From NCBI RefSeq assembly GCF_032163395.1, contig NZ_CP119968.1:1163501-1227500 (forward strand): 64,000 bases of DNA. The letters run 5' to 3'. The position numbers and the translations under genes were made by a program. This DNA is from Gloeocapsopsis dulcis. Its GTDB lineage: Bacteria; Cyanobacteriota; Cyanobacteriia; Cyanobacteriales; Chroococcidiopsidaceae. This document shows, piece after piece, positions 2,595 to 37,617 of the stretch (its first letter is position 1; every line of letters begins with the position of its first letter). The notes under the pieces are model-generated. The model had not been told where the DNA came from and searched no databases. It was given only the letters and a program-made list of their open reading frames with translations.

Positions 2595-3230
2595 TTAATG
2601 CGTACCAAATAGGCGATCGCCTGCATCACCTAATCCTGGCACAATGTATCCATGCTCGTCTAATTTTTCGTCAATCGCAGCTGTATATATTGGGACATCA
2701 GGGTGTTGCTCGTGAAAATGCTCAATTCCTTCGGGCGCAGCAAGCAAACAAACAAACTTCAAAGAAGCAGGGTTTGTTGACTTCAAGCGTGTCACCGCTG
2801 CTGCTGCAGAGTTTCCTGTTGCCAGCATCGGATCGACAACTAACATATCACGCTGCTCGACATCGTGAGGTACTTTGAAATAGTATTCAATTGCAATCAG
2901 TGTTTTGGGGTCACGGTACAAACCAATATGCCCTACCCTAGCTGAAGGCATTAACTCTAACATTCCATCTAAAATTCCCTGTCCTGCTCTTAAGATCGAG
3001 ACAATCACCAGCTTTTTGTCTGGTGCTAATAGGGGAGCTTCCATTGTCGCTAAAGGCGTTTTAATCGTTTCACTTTTTAATGGTAAGTCTCGTGTAACTT
3101 CATAGGCTAACAACAAACTAATTTCCTTTAAAAGCGTGCGAAATTTGGCTGTACTAGTTTCTGCTTTGCGCATTAGTGTCAGCTTGTGTTGAATTAAGGG
3201 ATGGTTAATGATAGTTACTTCAGCTTTCAT
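2595..3230 (-). CDS. upp: Uracil phosphoribosyltransferase
   Basis: 211 residues, full length for bacterial Upp, which makes UMP from uracil and PRPP. The PRPP-binding loop [15 protein letters not shown] lies at about residues 131-145 and the uracil-binding C-terminal motif [17 protein letters not shown] closes the protein. SILRAGQG in the middle is also typical. It heads the minus-strand run upp - AllA-like - codB with short spacers, so these are probably co-transcribed. In the URC route of uracil catabolism this enzyme performs the first committed step, which agrees with URC1 and URC4 homologues 1.1 to 3.6 kb upstream on the same strand. Confidence 0.95.
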
Positions 3231-3415
3231 AGTTCAAGAATTAATTGATGAGAGAATATTTAAACATACTTTACATTTACGCATGAAAATTCTTTGTAGA
3301 CAGTATATTTGATTGACATTTTTATAAGATTTTTTTTGTTTGTAAAGTGTTTTTTCGATTACTAATATCATTTTTTTGGCCTGATATAGTAATTAAAATA
3401 ATGAACAATTAAGTA

Positions 3416-4204
3416 ATGACTACCTTTAAAAAACCTGAGATACACAGTAAGTTTATCCTGGTAACAACGCAAAGGAGTGGCTCAACTTGGGTAATAGATA
3501 TGCTCAACAGTCACCCAGAAATAGCTGCGTATGGTGAGCTGTTTTTAAATAATGGAAAAGGTACACCAGCATGGTGTGGCGAGAAAGATATTGTTTTTTG
3601 GAATACTTACTTTGAAAATATCAAATTTCCTGGTAAAAAAATAATTAAGCCTTTATTTATTTTCAACTACTTAAATCAAGTATATTCTCAAAAATATTTT
3701 ATAAAGTCTGTTGGGTTTAAACTGATGTATCAGCAGATGAGTAAATATCGTTATGGGTTGCTGGCATACATCTTATTTAACAAAGTGTCTATCATTCATC
3801 TCATCAGAGCAAACCATTTAGATGTAATCTTATCTCAAAGTGCAGCCTGCGTGAGAGGTGTATATCATTCACGCGATAGAGAAAACATAGAAGATGTCAA
3901 AATTAATTTGGATACATTGGAGTTAGTTGATAGACTAAAACAACAGGAAAAGCAAATTTGTAAAGCTAAAAATTGGTACTCTAACCTGGGTTTACCATAT
4001 ATGGAAGTAACATATGAAGATTTAGCTACTAATAAAAGTACTTTTAATAAAATACTAGATTTTATAGGAATTGAGCATCAGGCAATGAAGCTATCTTCTT
4101 CTTTAAAAAAGATAAATCCTAAATCTCATGCTGAACTTATCGCGAATTATGAAAGTGTCAAAGCTACTTTACAAGCAACTCACTTTTATCAGTTTCTCAG
4201 GTAA
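3416..4204 (+). CDS. Sulfotransferase family protein
   Basis: 262 residues. The N-terminal PAPS 5'-phosphosulfate loop reads LVTTQRSGSTWVIDMLNSHP (about residues 16-35) and the 3'-phosphate region is HLIRANHLDVILSQ near residue 127, as in Stf0/heparan-type sulfotransferases. The enzyme would move sulfate from PAPS to a glycan, lipid or small acceptor in the cytosol; the acceptor is unknown. The gene is conspicuously AT-rich (runs of A and T, Lys/Asn-rich protein) and stands on the opposite strand inside an otherwise minus-strand pyrimidine block. Both points suggest later insertion, possibly by transfer. Confidence 0.8.
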   Translation: MTTFKKPEIHSKFILVTTQRSGSTWVIDMLNSHPEIAAYGELFLNNGKGTPAWCGEKDIVFWNTYFENIKFPGKKIIKPLFIFNYLNQVYSQKYFIKSVGFKLMYQQMSKYRYGLLAYILFNKVSIIHLIRANHLDVILSQSAACVRGVYHSRDRENIEDVKINLDTLELVDRLKQQEKQICKAKNWYSNLGLPYMEVTYEDLATNKSTFNKILDFIGIEHQAMKLSSSLKKINPKSHAELIANYESVKATLQATHFYQFLR

Positions 4205-4211
4205 GATAGTT

Positions 4212-4250
4212 TAAAAAAAATCCTTTGAGGGTAGGTATAATGCCGACCCT
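4212..4250 (-). terminator. Probable terminator of the URC1-URC4 transcript
   Basis: Read on the minus strand, a hairpin (AGGGT..GG / CC..ACCCT, 4228-4250, one internal mismatch) is followed by a run of eight T (4213-4220 on the plus strand is all A). It sits about 60 bp after the DUF1688 stop, as expected for an intrinsic terminator. Confidence 0.55.
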
Positions 4251-7152: not shown

Positions 7153-7662
7153 TTAAATATCTTGTTCGCCCAACTCGCTGGTCATATAGTCAAACGGCTC
7201 ATCTATGAAATTCGTGTCACTAACTCCTGCGGCTGCGACTTGCTCTTTAACAATGTTCTTCATGATTTGAATACCTTGAATCGTTGGACCGATTGGCACT
7301 CCTAGAGAATTGTAAGTTTCTCGCAAGCCTTGCAACACCCGTTCATCCAAGACATCCATACTACCAGCCACTAACGCATAGGTAGCATAGCGTAGGTAAT
7401 AGTCCATATCGCGCAAGCAAGCGGCATATCGCCGTGTTGTATAGGCATTACCACCAGGGCGAATCAGTTCTGGTAGTTCGTCAAACAACTGAGAACCTGA
7501 ACGCTTGACAATTGTAGCTGCATTGCCATTAATTGCAGCAGCAGCTTGGATTCGTGCTGTACCTGTTTCAAAATAGGATTTTAGCCGTTCCATCGCATCT
7601 CGGTCAAAGTACCGACCTGCTACATCATAAGTTCCAATTAAATTTGTTACCGCGTCCCGCAT
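7153..7662 (-). CDS. apcF: Allophycocyanin beta-18 subunit, phycobilisome core
   Basis: 169-residue phycobiliprotein. It has the globin-like fold signatures of allophycocyanin beta chains: the chromophore cysteine and the beta-84 type segment YAACLRDMDYYLRYATYALVAG, the preceding Asn of NAYTTRRY that is methylated in beta subunits, and GSMDVLDERVLQGLRETYNSLGVP. The divergent residues and the C-terminal FIDEPFDYMTSEL match ApcF (beta-18) rather than ApcB. It forms part of the terminal emitter trimer in the phycobilisome core and binds one phycocyanobilin. It stands alone, divergent from glnA, as apcF commonly does. Confidence 0.9.
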   Translation of the reverse strand: MRDAVTNLIGTYDVAGRYFDRDAMERLKSYFETGTARIQAAAAINGNAATIVKRSGSQLFDELPELIRPGGNAYTTRRYAACLRDMDYYLRYATYALVAGSMDVLDERVLQGLRETYNSLGVPIGPTIQGIQIMKNIVKEQVAAAGVSDTNFIDEPFDYMTSELGEQDI

Positions 7663-8095
7663 GAAATTGATCTCCGAATTCCTATTTGTGGTTTGATATT
7701 CTTGATTTGATTTTTTGTACCTAGTATTTATGATTATGGTGCCTGAACTATGAAATAGCCCTCAGGCAACTTACTCGCTACTTATGGATTTTATGCCAAT
7801 TTGACTACTGATTTGAGATTTTAACTCTGAGATTTTATGAATGATGTTGTTTCGTACTGCATCTTTACGATCGTCTTACTCGGTGATTTTTAACTCCACA
7901 AGCCGTATTGTTAAGCAAAAGGAGTCATTTTCACAATCTTTCGCAAAGAATCCTAATAGAATCAACAAAAACAGATTTTTGTATAATAGACTACAAAACT
8001 GCCCCCAATTCTATCCTTAGGATGATCCAAAAGTGGCACAGTTTAGTCTGAACATAACGCTAGCGGCAGCAGGATAAAAAAGTTAAGGAGTTACC
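7663..8095. promoter_or_regulatory. Divergent promoter region apcF / glnA
   Basis: 433 bp between two divergent, highly expressed genes. It includes the NtcA site and -10 element listed separately for glnA. No RNA gene was recognised. The last 12 bases before glnA contain the ribosome-binding sequence aaggag. Confidence 0.6.
7981..8023 (+). promoter_or_regulatory. NtcA-activated promoter of glnA
   Basis: GTATAATAGACTAC at 7981-7994 is a perfect GTA-N8-TAC NtcA box. TAGGAT at 8018-8023 fits the TAN3T -10 element with a 23-base gap, the standard class II NtcA layout. It lies 102 bp before the glnA start. NtcA activation of glnA under nitrogen limitation is well established in cyanobacteria. 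Confidence 0.9.
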
Positions 8096-9520
8096 ATGTC
8101 TGAAGAGAAAACCCCGCAAGATGTCTTGAAGATGATTCAAGACGAAAACATTGAACTGATCGATTTAAAATTTGTCGATCCCCTAGGTACGTGGCAGCAT
8201 CTTACCGTACATAAATCGCTGATTGAAGAAGAAAGCTTTAGTGAAGGGGTGGCGTTTGATGGCTCCAGTATTCGTGGCTGGAAGTCAATTCATGAATCAG
8301 ACATGGCGATGCGACCAGATCCCAATACTGCCTGGATTGACCCCTTTATGGCAGACAAAACACTATCGCTGATTTGTACGATTTTAGAGCCACGTACAGG
8401 AGAACTTTACGATCGCTGTCCGCGCGCGATCGCCCAAAAAGCGTTAGATTTCCTCCAAGCTGCAAATCTTGGTGATACAGCATTCTTTGGTCCCGAAGCA
8501 GAATTTTTCATTTTTGATGATGTCCGCTTCGACCAAACTGAAAACAAGAGCTACTACTATGTAGATTCTGCTGAAGGTCGTTGGAATTCGGGTCGCGAGG
8601 AAGCAGGTGGTAACTTAGGCTATAAACCTCGCTACAAAGAAGGGTACTTCCCTGTTTCGCCCACTGACTCGTTGCAAGACATGCGCAGTGAAATGCTGCT
8701 AACAATGGCAAAGTGCGGTGTCGTGATTGAAAAGCATCACCACGAAGTTGCTACAGGCGGTCAGTGCGAGTTAGGCTTTAGGTTTGCCCCGTTAATTAAA
8801 GCGGCTGATGACTTAATGACGTACAAGTATGTCATCAAAAACGTCGCCAAGAAATATGGTAAAACTGTCACCTTCATGCCCAAGCCAATCTTTAACGATA
8901 ACGGTTCGGGGATGCACACCCACCAATCAATTTGGAAAGAAGGTCAACCATTATTTGCAGGCGATCGCTATGCCGGCTTAAGTCAAATGGCACTGCATTA
9001 CATCGGTGGAATCTTAAAACACGCCCCTGCATTGTTAGCTTTTACCAATCCCAGCACGAACTCTTATAAGCGTCTAGTTCCTGGTTTTGAAGCACCTGTA
9101 AACTTGGCATACTCCCAAGGCAACCGTTCAGCTTCGGTGCGAATTCCCATTGCTTCTAACCCCAAGGCAAAGCGTTTAGAGTTCCGTTGTCCTGATGCTA
9201 CCGCCAACCCTTATCTTGCGTTTGCGGCAATGCTATGCGCTGGTATCGACGGTATCAAGAATGAAATTGATCCTGGCGATCCTTTAGATGTAGATATTTA
9301 CGAACTTAGCCCTGAAGAGTTGGCAAAAGTTCCCTCGACACCAGGTTCTTTACTTGAGGCTTTACAAGCACTCGAAGACGATCATAGCTTCCTCACATCT
9401 ACTGGTGTGTTTACTGAAGACTTCATCACTAACTGGATTACGTACAAGATTGACAAAGAAATCAACCCAATGCGGCTACGTCCTCATCCCTATGAGTTTG
9501 CCCTCTACTACGACGTCTAG
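8096..9520 (+). CDS. glnA: Glutamine synthetase type I
   Basis: 474 residues, the GSI length. It condenses ammonium and glutamate to glutamine with ATP and is the entry point of ammonium in cyanobacteria. Visible signatures are FDGSSIRGW near residue 55, the metal/ATP site EAEFFIFDD, the [10 protein letters not shown] and [12 protein letters not shown] active-site blocks, [15 protein letters not shown], and the C-terminal [31 protein letters not shown] near the end resembles the adenylylation-loop region. It is monocistronic, with an NtcA promoter before it and a terminator after it. No gif inhibitor gene is visible in the window. Confidence 0.97.
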
Positions 9521-25267: not shown

Positions 25268-25744
25268 CTATGACACAGTTGCGGCTGGAACTGCACTATC
25301 AAGAAATGCTCTCCAGTTCTGCGGCTGCATAAAAGTTAAGTATTCTAATGCTAAGTCTGGCGGGAGAAATTCTAACATTAATTTATTCTCTACCCAGAAT
25401 TCGATAACATGAAAAGGACCGCGATTGCTCTGTCTGACTAACCAACCTTCTCGGGCACCAATATCTTCAACTTCTTCACGGCTAACTGGAACAGAAATCG
25501 CTGCATGAACTGCACTAAAAGGGCTAGATGAACTATTGTGTGAAAATGCTGCTTCTTCAACCCCAGGAATCAATTCAGTTCCCTTAGGATAAAGTTCAAT
25601 GGCTGTACCGTACTCATCATCAGCTAGTACAATATAACTCCCTGGATGTGGTGGAAAAGGAAGTGATTGTCCATGACAAACCTGGGCTAAAATTTCAGCA
25701 ACATGAAGCGGGTTATCAACTGCTATTGAAATATGATGAAGCAT
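25268..25744 (-). CDS. VOC/glyoxalase-fold protein
   Basis: 158 residues. One VOC repeat is visible at the N-terminus (LHHISIAVDNPLHVAEILAQV, first His a likely metal ligand), then YIVLADDEYGTAIELYPKG with an acidic ligand, HAAISVPVSREEVEDIGAREGW, and PFHVIEFWVENKLMLEFLPPDL. Metal-dependent lyase/isomerase/dioxygenase fold; the reaction is unknown. Convergent with the carotenoid oxygenase gene. Confidence 0.72.
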   Translation of the reverse strand: MLHHISIAVDNPLHVAEILAQVCHGQSLPFPPHPGSYIVLADDEYGTAIELYPKGTELIPGVEEAAFSHNSSSSPFSAVHAAISVPVSREEVEDIGAREGWLVRQSNRGPFHVIEFWVENKLMLEFLPPDLALEYLTFMQPQNWRAFLDSAVPAATVS

Positions 25745-27652: not shown

Positions 27653-27727
27653 ATAATTCAAAACTGATTGACTTTCACTCGGCGAGAGGCTAAATATTGT
27701 CACATACATAGCCAACGGCACTCGTCT

Positions 27728-28837
27728 ATGGAACTGGCGACAACACTGACAAGCCAAACTGTGCAAAATGCTGTCCGTGAGGTAGGAATTAACCCGAATC
27801 ACTGGTACGCGGTAGGTTGGGCAGATCAACTCAAACCTGGGGAAATTATGCCTGTTGTCATCTGGCAGCAGGCGATCGCAGTTTACCGCGATATCAACGG
27901 TCAACTTCACGCACTAGAAGATTTTTGCCCGCACAAAGGTGTTGCTTTGCATAAAGGTAAAGTCCACGGCTGTAACCTTGCTTGTGCTTACCACGGTTGG
28001 GAATTTAATAGTGAAGGAAGTTGCGTCAAAATTCCCTACTTGCCAGAAAAACAGAAGTTACCTCGGGCAAATGTTCGCAGTTATCCCATTCAAGAACAAT
28101 ACAATTTAATTTGGATTTTCCCTGGGGAACCAAAGCTGGCTGCAACTTGTCAAATACCTCATATTCCGGAGTTTTTTGAAAATGAGTGGGTAGTAGTCCC
28201 AATTTCTGCTCATTTTCAAGCACATTTTTCTATCTGCAACGAAAACACGATGGATGTGTTTCATGGATTTCTGCATCAAGGATTACAAGGTTGGTTTGAT
28301 CCAGTTTTGCTCAGCCTCAAGGAAACCGAAGCTTCAGTTCGCGCCGAGTACAACGTTTCCTATAAAGGACACATGGCAAAGTTCCTTGGTTTAAGCGATC
28401 GCGCCGATACCGTTACTACATTACCCATTACAGTAGAGTATCGCTATCCGCATTATGCTAGTTCACTCCAAGGAGTCTCTTCTTTATACTTGATGCGCTT
28501 ACCTATAGGCTCTAACGAAAGTCGTTCGTTTGCCTTGTTCTTTTTCAAAGTTCGTTTACCGCAATGGATACTGCAACCAATTAAACCAATACTAATACCT
28601 CTACTTCAACGCTTTGTATTGTCTAAGTTTCTTGCCCAAGATATTGAAATGATTGAAAGCGAACAGCGTAACTATCTGGCGAATCCTCAACGCAGATATG
28701 TAGAAATTAATCCAGCAATTATTGCTATCCAACGACTAATTATCCGGCAACATGAACAATTTATGCAAAAATCTATACAACCGTCCTTGCAACATCAGGA
28801 GAGAGAATCAGTTACCAATTTTGCTAGCGGCTCTTAA
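27728..28837 (+). CDS. Rieske non-haem iron oxygenase
   Basis: 369 residues from ATG 27728. The Rieske [2Fe-2S] ligands are C67-P-H69 (EDFCPHKG) and C86-A-Y-H89 (CAYHGW). The mononuclear iron site is in CNENTMDVFHGFLH with its two His. The C-terminal part has a hydrophobic segment (PQWILQPIKPILIPLL) that may touch the membrane, as in PaO/CAO or sterol-type oxygenases. The substrate is unknown. It lies between hemJ and three genes resembling a ceramide pathway, 143 bp before the first of them. Oxidation of a lipid or of a tetrapyrrole are both possible; neighbours do not decide. Confidence 0.82.
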   Translation: MELATTLTSQTVQNAVREVGINPNHWYAVGWADQLKPGEIMPVVIWQQAIAVYRDINGQLHALEDFCPHKGVALHKGKVHGCNLACAYHGWEFNSEGSCVKIPYLPEKQKLPRANVRSYPIQEQYNLIWIFPGEPKLAATCQIPHIPEFFENEWVVVPISAHFQAHFSICNENTMDVFHGFLHQGLQGWFDPVLLSLKETEASVRAEYNVSYKGHMAKFLGLSDRADTVTTLPITVEYRYPHYASSLQGVSSLYLMRLPIGSNESRSFALFFFKVRLPQWILQPIKPILIPLLQRFVLSKFLAQDIEMIESEQRNYLANPQRRYVEINPAIIAIQRLIIRQHEQFMQKSIQPSLQHQERESVTNFASGS

Positions 28838-28980
28838 CAATTTATTCATAAAAACTATTACTTTTTGTTCTATGCTACGGTTTTTTAAACCTGGATAGCG
28901 TTAACTACCTAACCAAAGGCAACATTTTCTTAAGTCAAACAGGATAAGCTATCTGGGATAAAGGTGAGGGGAGTAGATTA

Positions 28981-30261
28981 GTGCAAGTTATTAAAGAATA
29001 CGTTCAACGGTGGTACGAAAGCGGACTCGATCCTGATGAGTACATTTGTCATCGTAAGCAAGGTAATCTTGTAGAAATTTCTGATGCAGACACAGGTGAG
29101 AAAAAAACTGTTCTAACCTTCTGCACAAATGACGTCTTAGGACTCGTACAATGCGAGGCAGTTAAACAAGCTGCGATTGATGCAATACTCCAGCATGGCA
29201 CATCAAATAGTTCCACATCAGTTTTAAGCGGGCGGATTACCTTACATCAACAGTTAGAAGACGAAATATCTGCATTCAAGCATTTACCACATACACAGTT
29301 ATTTCTTAATGCGTGGATGGCAATGCAAGCAATGATGGATGCGTTTTGTCACCTCGCAATTCCAGTACCAGGATTTCAAAACACCCGTGAAACACTCATT
29401 CTCACCGATGTGCTGAATCATGGCTGTATTGTTTCGGCAGTCGTCAATGCGGGGACTCGTTCAGGAAAAGTGTTTAGTCACAGCCCGCAAGTGCGCGTCA
29501 AAGCTTATCGTCATTGTGATGTCGAAGACTTGCGGCGTAAGTTACAGCGCTATGCTCGACCTGGCGATCGCATTTTAGTTGTTTCTGATGCAGTATTCTC
29601 GATGGATGGCGACATCGCCCCACTACCCGATATGCTGAATGTGTTGCACCACTACGAAGGTAGTGTTCTACTGATGGATGAAGCCCATGCTAGCGGGGCA
29701 TTAGGAGCTACAGGACGCGGGATTTACGAGCATTTTGGTATTTTACCCGCACAGGCAATTGAACGCGGTGTAGTACCGATAATCATGACAACTTTCTCCA
29801 AATTTGCTGCCTCAGCAGGAGCCGCAATTAGCACTCATGTTGCTGAGTTAAAACCACTCCTGAATGTATCGCCCACATCAATTGGGACAATTTCCCTCTC
29901 ACCACCTTTAACAGCTGCAGCGTTAGAAAGTATCCGCCAAGTACGCCAGCGTCCTGAGTTGGTACAGAAACTTCAAGAAAATACGCAATATCTGCGATCG
30001 CGTCTCGCGGAACACGATTTTGTGGCGATCGGTGAAACCAATGTTATTCCCGTTATCTTACCATCTGAGACTAATCCGAAAATCTTTGCGCGGCAATTGA
30101 TGCATAACTATGGGCTATGGGTGTCTCCCATTTGGTTTATTGCTAAACCTCGCTTGCGAATCACTGTCAATGCATTGCATTCGCGTGAAGAAATGGATCG
30201 CTTAGTTGCAGGTATGGTAGCTACCAGAGATCTATTCTACAAACCAACACTCAGTGCCTAA
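28981..30261 (+). CDS. Alpha-oxoamine synthase, serine palmitoyltransferase-like
   Basis: 426 residues from GTG 28981. PLP-dependent fold-type I enzyme of the KBL/AONS/ALAS/SPT group: FCTNDVLGL at the start, GTSNSSTSVLSG, His147 in NHGC stacking on PLP, D233 and H236 in DEAHASGALGATGRG, and the PLP lysine K274 in TTFSKFAASAG. These enzymes join an amino acid to an acyl-CoA or acyl-ACP. Biotin genes or threonine catabolism are not nearby; the next two genes are a GNAT-type acyltransferase and an NAD-dependent epimerase, the trio used for bacterial ceramide. SPT function is therefore the preferred reading, by inference. Confidence 0.8.
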   Translation: MQVIKEYVQRWYESGLDPDEYICHRKQGNLVEISDADTGEKKTVLTFCTNDVLGLVQCEAVKQAAIDAILQHGTSNSSTSVLSGRITLHQQLEDEISAFKHLPHTQLFLNAWMAMQAMMDAFCHLAIPVPGFQNTRETLILTDVLNHGCIVSAVVNAGTRSGKVFSHSPQVRVKAYRHCDVEDLRRKLQRYARPGDRILVVSDAVFSMDGDIAPLPDMLNVLHHYEGSVLLMDEAHASGALGATGRGIYEHFGILPAQAIERGVVPIIMTTFSKFAASAGAAISTHVAELKPLLNVSPTSIGTISLSPPLTAAALESIRQVRQRPELVQKLQENTQYLRSRLAEHDFVAIGETNVIPVILPSETNPKIFARQLMHNYGLWVSPIWFIAKPRLRITVNALHSREEMDRLVAGMVATRDLFYKPTLSA

Positions 30262-30297
30262 TCTTGGCTGTTAGCTAAATTGCTTGGTGAAATCAAA

Positions 30298-31446
30298 GTG
30301 CTTACAAAATCAATAAATTTTCAAGTTCGTGCTGTAACAACTCCAGAAGAAAGAGAAATCTTCCTAGATATACCAGCAAAGATATATACTAGCGATTCGT
30401 ATTGGGTACCACCAATTCGCAGCAGTATTGCTAAGGAATTTACTTCCGATTATCCTTTCTCTCAGTATGGAAAACTGCAACAATTTGTTGCCCTATCCCA
30501 AGACACAGACAACTCTCAACCTTTAGGTAGAATTGTCGCTGCCATAAATCAGCGCTTGATTGAACGCGAGGGCGAAAAGATTGGGTTATTTGGCTATTTT
30601 GAATGCGTTCCAGATTTTGAAGTTGCTCAAGCACTACTAACAACAGCAAGTGAGTGGTTGCGCGAACAAGGAATGACACGTGTTAGAGGTCCCATCGATT
30701 TATCGACGCATAACCGCTGCTTCTTTTTAGTCGATGGATTCGACTCGCCACCGCTATTAATGATGCCATATAATCCGCCGTACTATCCAAAGTTTATTGA
30801 ACGTGCTGGATGGCACAAAGCGAAAGATGCTTATGCTTATGATTTTCCCTTAGATAAACCTTTGCCCAAAGAGTTTGAAAAAGCGCATCGCGTTGCTTGT
30901 AAATCAGGTGTTAATTTCCGTCCAATTAGCACTAAGGGAGAAGGTTTTGAGAAAGATGCGATCGCCATCTACCACCTGTTCAATCGTGCGTTTGCCCACA
31001 GTTGGAGTTCTACACCCCGCAGCGAAGCTGAATTTCTCGAAGAAGCCAAAGAGTTACAAAGCATTGTAGACCCTGATGTGTTCCCCATTGCGGAATACAA
31101 CGGCGAAATGATCGGCTTTTTCATGGGTTTACCCGATTACAATATTCCTTTGAAGCAAGTCAACGGTAAATTAAACTGGTTGGGAATTCTCAAGTTTCTC
31201 TGGTATCGTCGTCAAATCGATCAAGGACGAGTGATTACAATTTGTTCACTGCCTGAGTATCGCCTGAAAATGGTACCTTTAGCTTTAATCTATCTGGGAA
31301 TGCAAGGCGGAATTCAAAAAGGGAAACCTTATAAACGTGCGGAACTGTCTTGGGTGTACGAAGATAACTACCCTTCGCGTAAACTGATTGAAGCCGCAGG
31401 TGGCAAAATATATAAAACGTATCGTATTTACGAAAAAGCCCTATGA
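30298..31446 (+). CDS. GNAT-superfamily acyltransferase, candidate bacterial ceramide synthase (bCerS-like)
   Basis: 382 residues from GTG 30298 (TTG 30280 is an alternative). Long, two-part GNAT-fold protein of the YghO-like type: VTTPEEREIFLDIPAKIYTSDSYWVPP, then the hallmark GPIDLSTHNRCFFLVDGFDSPPLLMMPYNPPYYPKFIERAGWHKAKDAYAY, and a C-terminal GNAT half ending in AELSWVYEDNYPSRKLIEAAGG. Proteins of this type act as ceramide synthase in Caulobacter, transferring an acyl chain to a sphingoid base. Its stop overlaps the next gene by four bases. Family assignment good; function by context. Confidence 0.7.
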   Translation: MLTKSINFQVRAVTTPEEREIFLDIPAKIYTSDSYWVPPIRSSIAKEFTSDYPFSQYGKLQQFVALSQDTDNSQPLGRIVAAINQRLIEREGEKIGLFGYFECVPDFEVAQALLTTASEWLREQGMTRVRGPIDLSTHNRCFFLVDGFDSPPLLMMPYNPPYYPKFIERAGWHKAKDAYAYDFPLDKPLPKEFEKAHRVACKSGVNFRPISTKGEGFEKDAIAIYHLFNRAFAHSWSSTPRSEAEFLEEAKELQSIVDPDVFPIAEYNGEMIGFFMGLPDYNIPLKQVNGKLNWLGILKFLWYRRQIDQGRVITICSLPEYRLKMVPLALIYLGMQGGIQKGKPYKRAELSWVYEDNYPSRKLIEAAGGKIYKTYRIYEKAL

Positions 31447-32414
31447 AGGCACTTGTCACGGGAGCCAATGGCTTTACTGGCTCCCACTTGGTTCAAGCTT
31501 TAGAACAACGCGGCGCACAAGTCGTGGGCTTGGTACGCAAGTCGAGTAACTTGTCACGTCTAGCCAATTCTAAGTTGCAACTAGTCTACGGCGACATCAC
31601 AGATCGCAAGGCTTTGCAAACTGCAATGCAAGGTGTCAATACAGTATTTCATACCGCCGCCTATGTTGAGCTAGGGTTAGTCGATGCAGACAAAATGCAG
31701 CGTGTTAATGTTGAAGGAACCCGCGCAGTGATGGAAGTTGCTCAAGCATCAGGGGTATCAAAAATCATTTATTGCAGCACTATTGGCATTTTTGGCGATA
31801 CCAAAGGTGAAGCGATCGATGAGACATTTCAACGCCGACAAACCGATTTTTCCTCAGCTTACGATCGCACAAAATACGAAGCACAGCAAATTGTTGATGA
31901 ATTTGCGTCTCTTGGGCTTCCGGTTGTTAGCGTTTTACCATCAGGAATCTTTGGTGCGGACGATCCGCATTTTGGTCCCGTGTTGCAGCAATTTTTCAAA
32001 GGTCGATTAAAGTTATGGGCAGGAGGCGATCGCATTACAGGAATTGTTCATGTTGATGATTTAGTTGATGCAATGCTGTTAGCCGTCGAGAAAAGCCCTT
32101 CAGGAGAACATTATATTATTTCGGCTGGGGAACTTTCTACGCGGGAAATGTTTGAATTCTTGAGTCAACAAACAGGAATATCTGTCCCTCAAGAAGCGCC
32201 AAAATCTGTTGTTAAGCTAGCCGGAAATCTTCTCGATCCCATCGGGCGTGTATTACAATGGCAACCTCCCTTAAGTCGCGAACGCGTTCACTATATTTAT
32301 GATCGCTGCGTACGCGTTGATGCAACCAAAGCCTGTCAACAATTAGGTTGGCAACCGCGATCAGTTGAACAGACTTTATCAGAAATCGTCAAAACACTCC
32401 AACAATTACATTAA
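31443..32414 (+). CDS. NAD(P)-dependent epimerase/dehydratase-family reductase (CerR-like)
   Basis: 323-residue extended SDR. Nucleotide-binding GANGFTGSHLV at residues 7-17, catalytic YDRTK (Tyr-x-x-x-Lys) after CSTIGIFGD, and the C-terminal substrate part. Such proteins include hopanoid, sterol-like and 3-oxo-lipid reductases; in the Caulobacter ceramide pathway CerR belongs to this family and reduces the keto group of the ceramide precursor. ATGA overlap with the acyltransferase gene means tight coupling. Sequence alone would also allow a dihydroflavonol-reductase-like activity. Confidence 0.78.
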   Translation: MKALVTGANGFTGSHLVQALEQRGAQVVGLVRKSSNLSRLANSKLQLVYGDITDRKALQTAMQGVNTVFHTAAYVELGLVDADKMQRVNVEGTRAVMEVAQASGVSKIIYCSTIGIFGDTKGEAIDETFQRRQTDFSSAYDRTKYEAQQIVDEFASLGLPVVSVLPSGIFGADDPHFGPVLQQFFKGRLKLWAGGDRITGIVHVDDLVDAMLLAVEKSPSGEHYIISAGELSTREMFEFLSQQTGISVPQEAPKSVVKLAGNLLDPIGRVLQWQPPLSRERVHYIYDRCVRVDATKACQQLGWQPRSVEQTLSEIVKTLQQLH

Positions 32415-32458: not shown

Positions 32459-32743
32459 TTAAGGTTCCACTTTGACACCGCGCCAAAAGGCAATATAGCC
32501 TTCAATGTTCTTTGCTTTCTCCTTAGCATCAGGATAATACCACGCAGCATCTTTATTGACTTGTCCATCAACTTCAACGCTGTAGTAACTTGCTAAACCT
32601 TTCCAAGGACAACTTGTGTGAGTGGCAGAGTCTTTAAAATACTCTTTGTTGATGCTGTCAGGCGGAAAATAGTGATTGCTTTCAACAACTTCAGTGCGAT
32701 CGCTTTCGGCTAAAACAGTTCCATTCCAAATTGCTTTCGGCAT
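32459..32743 (-). CDS. DUF427 protein
   Basis: 94 residues, full length for DUF427. Hallmarks: MPKAIWNGTVLAESD, VVESNHYFPPDSINKEYF, THTSCPWKGLASYYSV and AAWYYPDAKEKAKNIEGYIAFWRGVKVE. Small cytosolic beta-rich protein common in cyanobacteria, actinobacteria and fungi; no reaction is established. Convergent with the epimerase gene. Confidence 0.88.
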   Translation of the reverse strand: MPKAIWNGTVLAESDRTEVVESNHYFPPDSINKEYFKDSATHTSCPWKGLASYYSVEVDGQVNKDAAWYYPDAKEKAKNIEGYIAFWRGVKVEP

Positions 32744-35646: not shown

Positions 35647-37617
35647 ATGTTAATGAACCCCCCTGCATTGAATATGTCTTACAATTTCACTGAACAAGAA
35701 CGCTATTGCTTGAAGCGTTTAGTAGATTACTCCTCAGTACAATCTTTGCCAGAAATTTGGCAGCTAGCACATCAGCGATTTGGCAACACAATTGCACTGC
35801 AAGATCCCCACGCTGTACCAGAAACGGTTATCACATATACGCAGTTGTATCAGCAAATCCAACAGTTTGCAGCAGCTTTACAAACTTTCCAGGTTATAGA
35901 AGTACAAAATAGCGTACCTTCTCGCATTGCTCTGATCGCCGACAATAGCCCACGTTGGTTCATTGCCGATCAAGGAATTATTACATCAGGAGCAGCAAAC
36001 GTTGTCCGGAGTTCTCAAGCAGAGCGGCAGGAATTACTATTTATTTTAGAAAATAGTGGCAGTATAGCCTTAGTTGTCGAAAATCAGCAGACGCTACAAA
36101 AACTCCGTGCTGACTTAGATTCTCTCTCAATTTCATTTGTCATTTTACTCTCGGATGAAACCCCAGAAGCCGATGCATCGTTAAGAGTATTAAACTTTCC
36201 GCAATTTATGGCGTTGGGTGAAAATCAACCATTACAGCCAGTGCAACAAAATCGAGAAACATTAGCCACACTGATGTACACTTCTGGCACGACGGGTAAA
36301 CCCAAGGGCGTCATGCTCACACATGGTAACTTATTACACCAAGTTGAAACACTAGGGGCTATCGTGCAGCCACAAGTCGGCGATCGCGTCCTTAGCATCT
36401 TACCAACCTGGCACGTTTATGAGCGCACTGGTGAATATTTCTTACTTTCTCAAGGTTGCACCCAATTTTACACAAACATCCGCCAAGTTAAGAAAGACAT
36501 TAGAGAATTCAAGCCAAATTACATGATTGGTGTACCCCGACTGTGGGAATCGATTTATGAAGGAGTCAAAAAACAGTTCCGCGAACAACCACTCAACAAA
36601 CAGCGGTTAATTGATTTTTTTCTCACCAACAGTCAGCGATTTGTGGAAGCCCGCAGAATTGTCCATGGGTTAAGCTTAAATTCCTTAAATCCTAGTGTAT
36701 CAGAACGTCTCAGTGCTTCTGTGCAAGCAACTACTTTGTCTCCAATCCACGCTTTAGGCGAAAAAATTGTGTATCAAAAAGTTCGCGAAGCAACTGGCGG
36801 ACAACTTAAGCAAGTGATTAGCGGTGGTGGTTCTTTAGCAAGGCACCTCGAAACCTTCTTTGAGATTATTGGTGTGGAAGTGCTAGTGGGGTATGGGCTC
36901 ACCGAAACTGCGCCTGTTACGAATGCGCGTCGCCAATGGCGGAATTTGCGAGGATCGTCAGGACAACCATTACCAGGGACGCAAGTGCGAATTGTCGATC
37001 CGGAAACTCGTCAACCTCTAGCCCAAGGAGAACGAGGCTTAGTGATGGTACGGGGATCTCAAATTATGCAAGGTTATTATCAAAATCCCGAAGCCACAGC
37101 TAAAGCAATTGATTCCGAAGGTTGGTTTGATACAGGCGATCTGGGATGGGTGACGCCAGATGATGATTTGGTGATTACAGGTAGAGCAAAAGATACGATT
37201 GTCTTGAGTAATGGCGAAAACATTGAACCACAACCGATTGAAGATGCGTGTTTGCGATCGCCCTATATCGATCAAATTATGCTTGTTGGACAAGATCAAA
37301 AATCTCTCGGTGCTTTAATCGTTCCTAATCTTGAAGCTTTACAGCAATGGGCTACCAGTCAGAATATCGAGCAAGTGCAAGATAACGCCACAGACATTGA
37401 CTTGAATAGTAAAACGATTCAGAGCTTATTCCGCCAAGAACTGAATCGGGAAGTAAAAAATCGCCCAGGTTATCGCCCAGATGACCGAATTGGTCCATTT
37501 GATTTGATTTTGGAACCATTTTCGATGGAAAATGGCATGATGACTCAAACTTTAAAAATTAAACGTCCGGTTGTGACGGAACATTATCGCGATATCATTA
37601 ACAAGATGTTTGCCTGA
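35647..37617 (+). CDS. aas: Long-chain acyl-ACP synthetase / acyl-CoA ligase
   Basis: 656 residues of the ANL superfamily. P-loop YTSGTTGKPKGVMLTHGN at about residue 212, VGYGLTETAPVTNARR, GWFDTGDLGW, and the hinge GRAKDTIVLSNGENIEPQPIED. Length and the lack of a transmembrane part fit the cyanobacterial Aas enzyme that recycles free fatty acids onto ACP. It could supply the acyl chain for the nearby alpha-oxoamine synthase and GNAT genes, although it is 3 kb away and not in the same operon. First Met may be ATG 35653 or 35677. Confidence 0.88.
   Translation: MLMNPPALNMSYNFTEQERYCLKRLVDYSSVQSLPEIWQLAHQRFGNTIALQDPHAVPETVITYTQLYQQIQQFAAALQTFQVIEVQNSVPSRIALIADNSPRWFIADQGIITSGAANVVRSSQAERQELLFILENSGSIALVVENQQTLQKLRADLDSLSISFVILLSDETPEADASLRVLNFPQFMALGENQPLQPVQQNRETLATLMYTSGTTGKPKGVMLTHGNLLHQVETLGAIVQPQVGDRVLSILPTWHVYERTGEYFLLSQGCTQFYTNIRQVKKDIREFKPNYMIGVPRLWESIYEGVKKQFREQPLNKQRLIDFFLTNSQRFVEARRIVHGLSLNSLNPSVSERLSASVQATTLSPIHALGEKIVYQKVREATGGQLKQVISGGGSLARHLETFFEIIGVEVLVGYGLTETAPVTNARRQWRNLRGSSGQPLPGTQVRIVDPETRQPLAQGERGLVMVRGSQIMQGYYQNPEATAKAIDSEGWFDTGDLGWVTPDDDLVITGRAKDTIVLSNGENIEPQPIEDACLRSPYIDQIMLVGQDQKSLGALIVPNLEALQQWATSQNIEQVQDNATDIDLNSKTIQSLFRQELNREVKNRPGYRPDDRIGPFDLILEPFSMENGMMTQTLKIKRPVVTEHYRDIINKMFA

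Follow-up and report, generated by a model that had tools for sequence, protein, structure and literature searches.

Can a cyanobacterium carry genes for a ceramide-like lipid and, if so, which ones? The question is raised by four open reading frames (ORFs) lying in one row on the plus strand of a 64,000-nucleotide stretch of Gloeocapsopsis dulcis, referred to here as the window, whose positions supply the coordinates below. The original prediction took them for a Rieske oxygenase followed by an alpha-oxoamine synthase (AOS), a two-part GNAT-type acyltransferase and an extended short-chain dehydrogenase/reductase (SDR), the last three as the same trio that makes ceramide in Caulobacter and the oxygenase as a possible modifier of the lipid. 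All four ORFs are found at the predicted place and strand, with the Rieske gene just upstream of the synthase gene. The genes and their motifs are:

27728..28837, plus strand: Rieske non-haem iron oxygenase, alpha-subunit type (ATG start, 369 amino acids; PF00355)
27926..27994, plus strand: motif C-P-H ... C-A-Y-H of the Rieske protein (C67, H69, C86, H89), read from the translation and taken by us to be the [2Fe-2S] ligand motif
28981..30261, plus strand: AOS (GTG start, 426 amino acids)
29677..29688, plus strand: D233 and H236 (DEAH) of the AOS, from alignment to Spt, BioF, KBL and ALAS rows; presumably contacts of the pyridoxal phosphate (PLP) ring
29800..29802, plus strand: K274 of the AOS, Schiff-base lysine, aligned with K265 of Sphingomonas Spt
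30280..31446, plus strand: tandem-GNAT acyltransferase, bCerS/YghO family by sequence (TTG start, uncertain; 388 amino acids)
31443..31446, plus strand: ATGA, the 4-bp overlap of the GNAT stop with the SDR start, read from the sequence as predicted
31443..32414, plus strand: extended SDR (ATG start, 323 amino acids; PF01370/PF01073)
31458..31481, plus strand: nucleotide-binding motif TGANGFTG of the SDR, from the translation (T6, G7, G10, F11, T12 and G13 invariant in an 8-row alignment)
31860..31874, plus strand: Y140-D-R-T-K144 of the SDR (Y140 and K144 invariant in the same alignment), a YxxxK motif that we assume to be catalytic

These genes belong to a conserved gene set of lipid type, in which the acyltransferase is a relative of bCerS and the first enzyme represents a new AOS subfamily. 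A ceramide-like product is likely, and we hold with moderate confidence that the set makes such a lipid.

On sequence comparison the acyltransferase is a member of the bCerS/YghO family and truly related to bacterial ceramide synthase. In BLAST it is 28-34% identical over about 370 amino acids (E 2e-49 to 3e-67) to six bCerS/YghO-type proteins, namely E. coli YghO and its counterparts from Sphingomonas, Pseudomonas, Roseomonas, Rubrobacter and Streptomyces, and 26% identical (E 3e-34) to a counterpart from Chloroflexota. Profile alignment of 30 cyanobacterial with 4 proteobacterial rows by hhalign gave a probability of 100 and an E value of 4.2e-65 over 369 columns. The GNAT tree splits the cyanobacterial GNATs together with the bCerS/YghO proteins from a cyanobacterial GNAT paralogue family with support of 100/100; for a clade excluding the Chloroflexota row the approximately unbiased test gave p-AU 0.141. 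Full-length relatives, some of them annotated YghO, were found on plasmids by tblastn. PMC9386255 names yghO alongside CC_1154 as the gene for the acyltransferase that proteobacterial dihydroceramide synthesis requires; according to the same paper, E. coli BL21 has an spt of its own. No PDB sequence matched the protein up to E 1. Its AlphaFold model, with a mean predicted local distance difference test score (pLDDT) of 80.6, has PDB matches at ranks 1 to 16 with TM scores of 0.53-0.58 by query and tandem GNATs on top, so that the modelled fold is that of a tandem GNAT, in agreement with the two parts predicted. We propose the enzyme as an N-acyltransferase.

Two side observations concern this family. 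A second cyanobacterial GNAT family (L224-L228; ORFs of 296-350 amino acids) appears to be distant kin of the bCerS-type enzyme at 26-31% identity. On a Roseomonas mucosa plasmid (L087, 7189-9907), a bCerS/YghO relative annotated as 'dATP pyrophosphohydrolase' is immediately preceded by a sterol-desaturase-family gene and followed by one for a nucleotidyltransferase.

The four genes behave as one set across cyanobacteria, recurring in about a third of the genomes sampled. The sample consists of 194 Cyanobacteriia genomes drawn evenly across families, so its counts are not shares of all cyanobacteria. The GNAT clade is present in 71 genomes, and every genome with the AOS (69), the SDR (69) or the Rieske clade (60) lies inside this GNAT set; AOS, GNAT and SDR occur together in 67 of the 194. 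Further partners are almost confined to the same genomes: MFS transporter (46 of 46 inside the set), fatty-acid hydroxylase (66/68), GH3 ligase (50/51) and an OlsC-like gene (33/35). In 20,000 within-family shuffles the observed overlap was never reached for AOS, SDR, Rieske, fatty-acid hydroxylase, GH3 or MFS, and once for the OlsC-like gene. Much of this co-occurrence is between unlinked genes, since in the surroundings of the GNAT gene in 40 of the 71 genomes, taken up to 15 kb and in a few cases shortened by contig ends, the SDR was found in 30, the AOS in 17 and the Rieske gene in 10. The counts leave out G051 and G111 for the GNAT, with only 27-28% paralogues (73 to 71), G088 and G141 for GH3, with rows at 29-31% (53 to 51), genomes with only matches of at most 41% for the Rieske (100 to 60), and those with only matches of at most 39% for the AOS (at least 182 to 69, the listing being complete well below the identity gap). 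The GNAT of G086 is counted from a 103-residue fragment at a contig end.

The neighbours of the synthase gene point to lipid metabolism. Neighbourhoods were compared for the best 80 of 150 AOS relatives, each at least 69% identical to the first query row and on named genome contigs; 79 have titles naming cyanobacteria, the remaining one Tatlockia. They include loci from Leptolyngbya, Spirulina, Calothrix, Rivularia, Richelia, Nostoc sp. WHI, Nostoc sp. FACHB-152 and an uncultured Scytonema. Neighbour families are single-linkage clusters of ORFs of at least 90 amino acids within 10 kb of the AOS, as contigs allow, each named from one member. Within that distance lie Rieske (69 loci), MFS (52), GNAT (45), SDR (36), GH3 (26), FA_hydroxylase (25), DevA-like ATPase and OlsC-like hydroxylase (17 each), DevC-like permease (15), Cupin_8 (14), B12 radical SAM (11) and fatty-acid desaturase (7). 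Several of these families are lipid-modifying, and the case for a lipid product rests mainly on this. In Nostoc sp. FACHB-152 the hydroxylase, GNAT, SDR, GH3, Cupin_8, Rieske and AOS genes stand in one row. In G. dulcis itself the partners lie outside the window: MFS and GH3 genes about 1 kb apart at C1:1808138-1812018, and a separate small PF04116 fatty-acid hydroxylase at C1:2522602-2523084; no OlsC-like gene of this genome reached the search threshold. The neighbouring OlsC-like hydroxylase scores 262 bits on its model (cut-off 450), and GH3 matches weakly, at 63 of 620 bits, the model of a GH3-like enzyme for ornithine lipid, as described in PMC12493201.

The locus of Richelia intracellularis (L196) has the AOS at 2995-4224 and the GNAT at 7357-8499, with the Rieske gene before and the SDR after. 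This species is a nitrogen-fixing symbiont with a reduced genome.

Judged by its sequence, the synthase is a deep, separate and so far cyanobacterial AOS subfamily that retains the PLP residues. These residues, present as predicted, are H147, D233, H236, T271, S273, K274 and R393 in the alignment, as assigned via the row of Sphingomonas Spt, whose residues 1-419 match crystal structure 2JG2. In a tree of 44 rows, the 17 rows of the cyanobacterial clade form one branch of length 3.19 with support of 100/100, the bootstrap being not fully settled; a grouping with KBL or BioF, named in the original prediction as the outcome that would speak against it, does not appear. The best NCBIfam model is bioF (TIGR00858) at 232.5 bits, under its cut-off of 426.45, and the protein is also below the cut-offs for KBL (TIGR01822, 161.9 of 493; PRK06939, 185.7 of 460) and ALAS. 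A separate second AOS gene of the same genome passes bioF with 450.3 bits, so that biotin synthesis looks covered. The AOS proteins of Rubrobacter and Streptomyces, encoded beside GNAT and SDR genes, group with Spt in the tree (99/91) and are themselves under the Spt model cut-offs; the Spt rows of E. coli, Sphingomonas and Prevotella each pass one curated Spt model. A structure prediction of the window AOS (pLDDT 60.4) was too poor and was not used. The synthase is proposed as the first enzyme, which would join an amino acid and an acyl thioester to an amino-ketone.

A conjugative Bacteroides plasmid also has an AOS gene (L080, 4926-6158), next to a gene for a TetR-type regulator, and a like gene is found on more Bacteroides plasmids; this candidate was dropped, as no acyltransferase or SDR was among the annotated neighbours shown.

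The two remaining enzymes are less specific. As predicted, the fourth gene encodes an extended SDR with nucleotide-binding and YxxxK motifs. Its highest model is the hopanoid epimerase HpnA (207 bits against a cut-off of 367.65), on which two CerR-type references score 93 and 114 bits; an assignment as HpnA was rejected at this score, and no gene of the genome passes that model. Kinship to CerR appears weak and partial, and the SDR, which we propose as a keto-reductase, does not appear specifically CerR-like in sequence. From an SDR tree of 21 rows, crude and with two rows of wrong ORFs, nothing was drawn. For the Rieske protein, the nearest NCBIfam model is SdmA, at 241.1 bits against a cut-off of 600, and it is a probable tailoring oxygenase of the lipid.

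Taken together, these relationships suggest the following route, whose chemical steps and order, like a role of the product in membranes, are as we infer them. The AOS would form a long-chain 3-keto amine from a fatty-acyl thioester and an amino acid, be it serine, alanine or another one. The tandem GNAT of the bCerS family would N-acylate this base, and the SDR would then reduce the ketone. The Rieske enzyme and the small fatty-acid hydroxylase encoded elsewhere in the genome may oxidise the product, and the GH3 ligase and MFS transporter may serve export and the activation or transfer of acyl groups. Acylation before reduction is the order described for Caulobacter in PMC11087976, from which it is borrowed as a model only.

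Several observations weigh against a ceramide pathway. The synthase fails three curated Spt models (165.7, 162.4 and 112.4 bits against cut-offs of 500, 640 and 670), its clade stands on its own deep branch apart from the Spt, KBL, BioF and ALAS rows, and in the loop that precedes the conserved arginine it is four residues short; it also has inserts absent from the Spt rows. For these reasons the label Spt is not earned, and the protein should, to judge from its sequence, act like an AOS. The SDR is 24.6-30.6% identical to five CerR-type references, mostly over partial-length alignments. No acyl carrier protein (ACP) was seen among the ORFs of the locus, whose list was read by eye, unlike in proteobacterial clusters, and the fatty-acyl ligase gene at 35647-37617, beyond recQ, does not recur in the 80 AOS loci. 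A stop codon is marked within the matched stretch of the MFS gene of G. dulcis. Among seven GNAT relatives, two (Chloroflexota, L085; Roseomonas, L087) have no AOS among their annotated neighbours, so that the GNAT family alone is no proof of ceramide. The claimed identity with the Caulobacter trio can thus be kept for the acyltransferase, by its homology to bCerS/YghO; it is unproven for the synthase, which lies outside the Spt clade and under the cut-offs of the Spt, bioF and KBL profiles alike, and for the SDR.

The distribution carries reservations of its own. Presence varies within only three families (f22, f25 and f35), so there were few independent gains and losses. Two control genes of the window gave shuffle p values of 0.0035 (51 of 120 genomes inside the set) and 0.098 (33 of 44), the former indicating that the shuffle is not fully neutral; the controls occur in 69 and 11 genomes outside the GNAT set, whereas the trio occurs in none. 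The AOS clade is missing from G080 and G086, where GNAT, SDR and Rieske are present; G084 and G142, which belong to one genus, have the other three genes but no SDR. Either assembly gaps or replaced enzymes could explain these misses. The Rieske gene is missing in 11 of the 71 GNAT genomes.

How, then, do other explanations fare? The one that survives best is a sub-case of the ceramide-like reading and overlaps with it in probability: the lipid could be a sphingolipid analogue built on another amino acid, for instance a 1-deoxy type made from alanine or a capnine/sulfonolipid made from cysteate, which we regard as possible and rather unlikely. The AOS groups with no tested activity in the tree, and any base of this kind could be a substrate for the GNAT and SDR. 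Where the Spt rows have G (G272 in Spt), the AOS clade has A, as does one of two reference BioF rows; however, the second BioF reference and the BioF of G. dulcis also have G there. The bit score of 102 to the solved cysteate enzyme, between those to Sphingobacterium Spt (130) and Sphingomonas Spt (79), decides nothing.

A secreted N-acyl amino-ketone, acting as a natural product or signal rather than as a membrane lipid, is improbable. It would suit the patchy distribution and the MFS gene near so many AOS loci, and autoinducers are also made by AOS enzymes, for which a profile model exists. It fits poorly with a partner acyltransferase of the ceramide-synthase family, with fatty-acid hydroxylase, desaturase and OlsC-like lipid hydroxylase as neighbours, and with retention of the genes in R. 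intracellularis, whose genome is reduced. That Rieske and SDR form a sterol or hopanoid C-4 demethylation pair like SdmA/SdmB (NF052579/NF052578), leaving AOS and GNAT to another pathway, is very improbable in spite of their matches to these models, as the SDR reaches only 153.8 bits on SdmB and both are far under the cut-offs of 600, the SDR scores higher on HpnA, and both clades are confined to GNAT-bearing genomes. Equally improbable is an ordinary BioF or KBL with unrelated neighbours, which was rejected, although bioF is the top model, on the cut-offs, the separate BioF gene and the tree, and the synthase also co-occurs with GNAT, SDR and Rieske.

The gene set bears on a gap in the literature. 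Chemical reports of ceramides exist for two cyanobacteria, Scytonema julianum and Moorea producens, without a genetic basis, while Nostoc punctiforme was sphingolipid-negative in its lipids and in heterologous expression, and its single AOS falls in the cyanobacterial BioF clade (PMC8895605). The statement that sphingolipids are not generally known in cyanobacteria is therefore fair. The set offers a concrete candidate for the missing genes, fits the negative result in N. punctiforme, whose sole reported AOS is of BioF type, and predicts which strains bear the lipid. Spt was searched at E <= 1e-70 in PMC11334938 and PMC12619533; because the window AOS reaches only 107-140 bits against three Spt references, screens of this kind, we infer, cannot detect it. 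PMC10331486 mentions several homologues of human ceramide kinase among cyanobacterial enzymes. No earlier description of the four-gene set in cyanobacteria was found in the open-licence literature, and neither 'sphingo' nor 'ceramide' occurs in the main text of two Gloeocapsopsis papers searched for these terms. If the reading is true, sphingolipid-type lipids would be spread over a considerable share of a photosynthetic phylum, with desert genera, mat formers and nitrogen-fixing symbionts among the bearers, and the number of bacteria counted as sphingolipid-capable would need revision. More tentatively, and with somewhat more doubt than belief, we suggest that a substantial minority of cyanobacteria (the acyltransferase being in 71 of the 194 sampled, the trio in 67) may make an unrecognised class of ceramide-like lipids, in which a new AOS subfamily has its own amino-acid substrate, a bCerS-family enzyme N-acylates, and Rieske enzyme and fatty-acid hydroxylase oxidise, and that Spt-based screens missed it, the first enzyme being too divergent.

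Some details of the locus remain to be given. An alternative TTG start at 27668 would extend the Rieske protein to 389 amino acids; the query for its domain, model and genome searches started two codons 5' of the ATG. Pfam scores are 83.9 bits for Rieske (PF00355), 110.8 for Aminotran_1_2, a weak 22.4 for Acetyltransf_1 and 140.1 for Epimerase. The four genes are not chance ORFs, as all have close relatives in other genomes, at identities of 58-94% for the GNAT (one fragment 49%), 69-96% for the AOS, 60-93% for the SDR and 53-92% for the Rieske. Promoter-like sites (6 against a shuffle mean of 8.8) are uninformative, and terminator-like sites number 9 against 4.8. On the minus strand, a 158-amino-acid gene without Pfam match (25268-25744) is found in 44 of the 194 genomes, in several copies in some, and a 94-amino-acid ORF between the SDR and recQ (32459-32743), which to us resembles a DUF427-type protein, occurs also in G. 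crepidinum (L189, 13486-13770).

Among known systems, cyanobacterial BioF (Npun_R3567 type) shares the AOS superfamily with the window enzyme but is a separate gene and clade, the bioF cut-off having been applied to the copy of G. dulcis only. The ceramide locus of E. coli with yghO (L081) and its counterpart on a Pseudomonas veronii plasmid (L086) contain in YghO the annotated, literature-linked relative of the GNAT; the E. coli locus differs in its make-up, with an ACP, an SDR, an acyl-AMP ligase and an Spt above the cut-off of NF047599 (599.9 bits against 500). The operons of Rubrobacter radiotolerans and a Streptomyces plasmid (L082 and L084) show the AOS-GNAT-SDR order of the window, with GNATs 34% identical, but their AOS proteins group with Spt and that of the window does not. 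The pathway of Caulobacter and other proteobacteria (Spt, bCerS, CerR, AcpR and AasR), compared through its E. coli, Pseudomonas and Sphingomonas counterparts as stand-ins, likewise combines an AOS, a tandem GNAT of the bCerS family and an extended SDR. The cyanobacterial set differs from it in an AOS outside the Spt clade, an SDR apparently not specifically CerR-like and a locus with no ACP seen, and adds to it the Rieske enzyme, the fatty-acid hydroxylase, GH3 and MFS.

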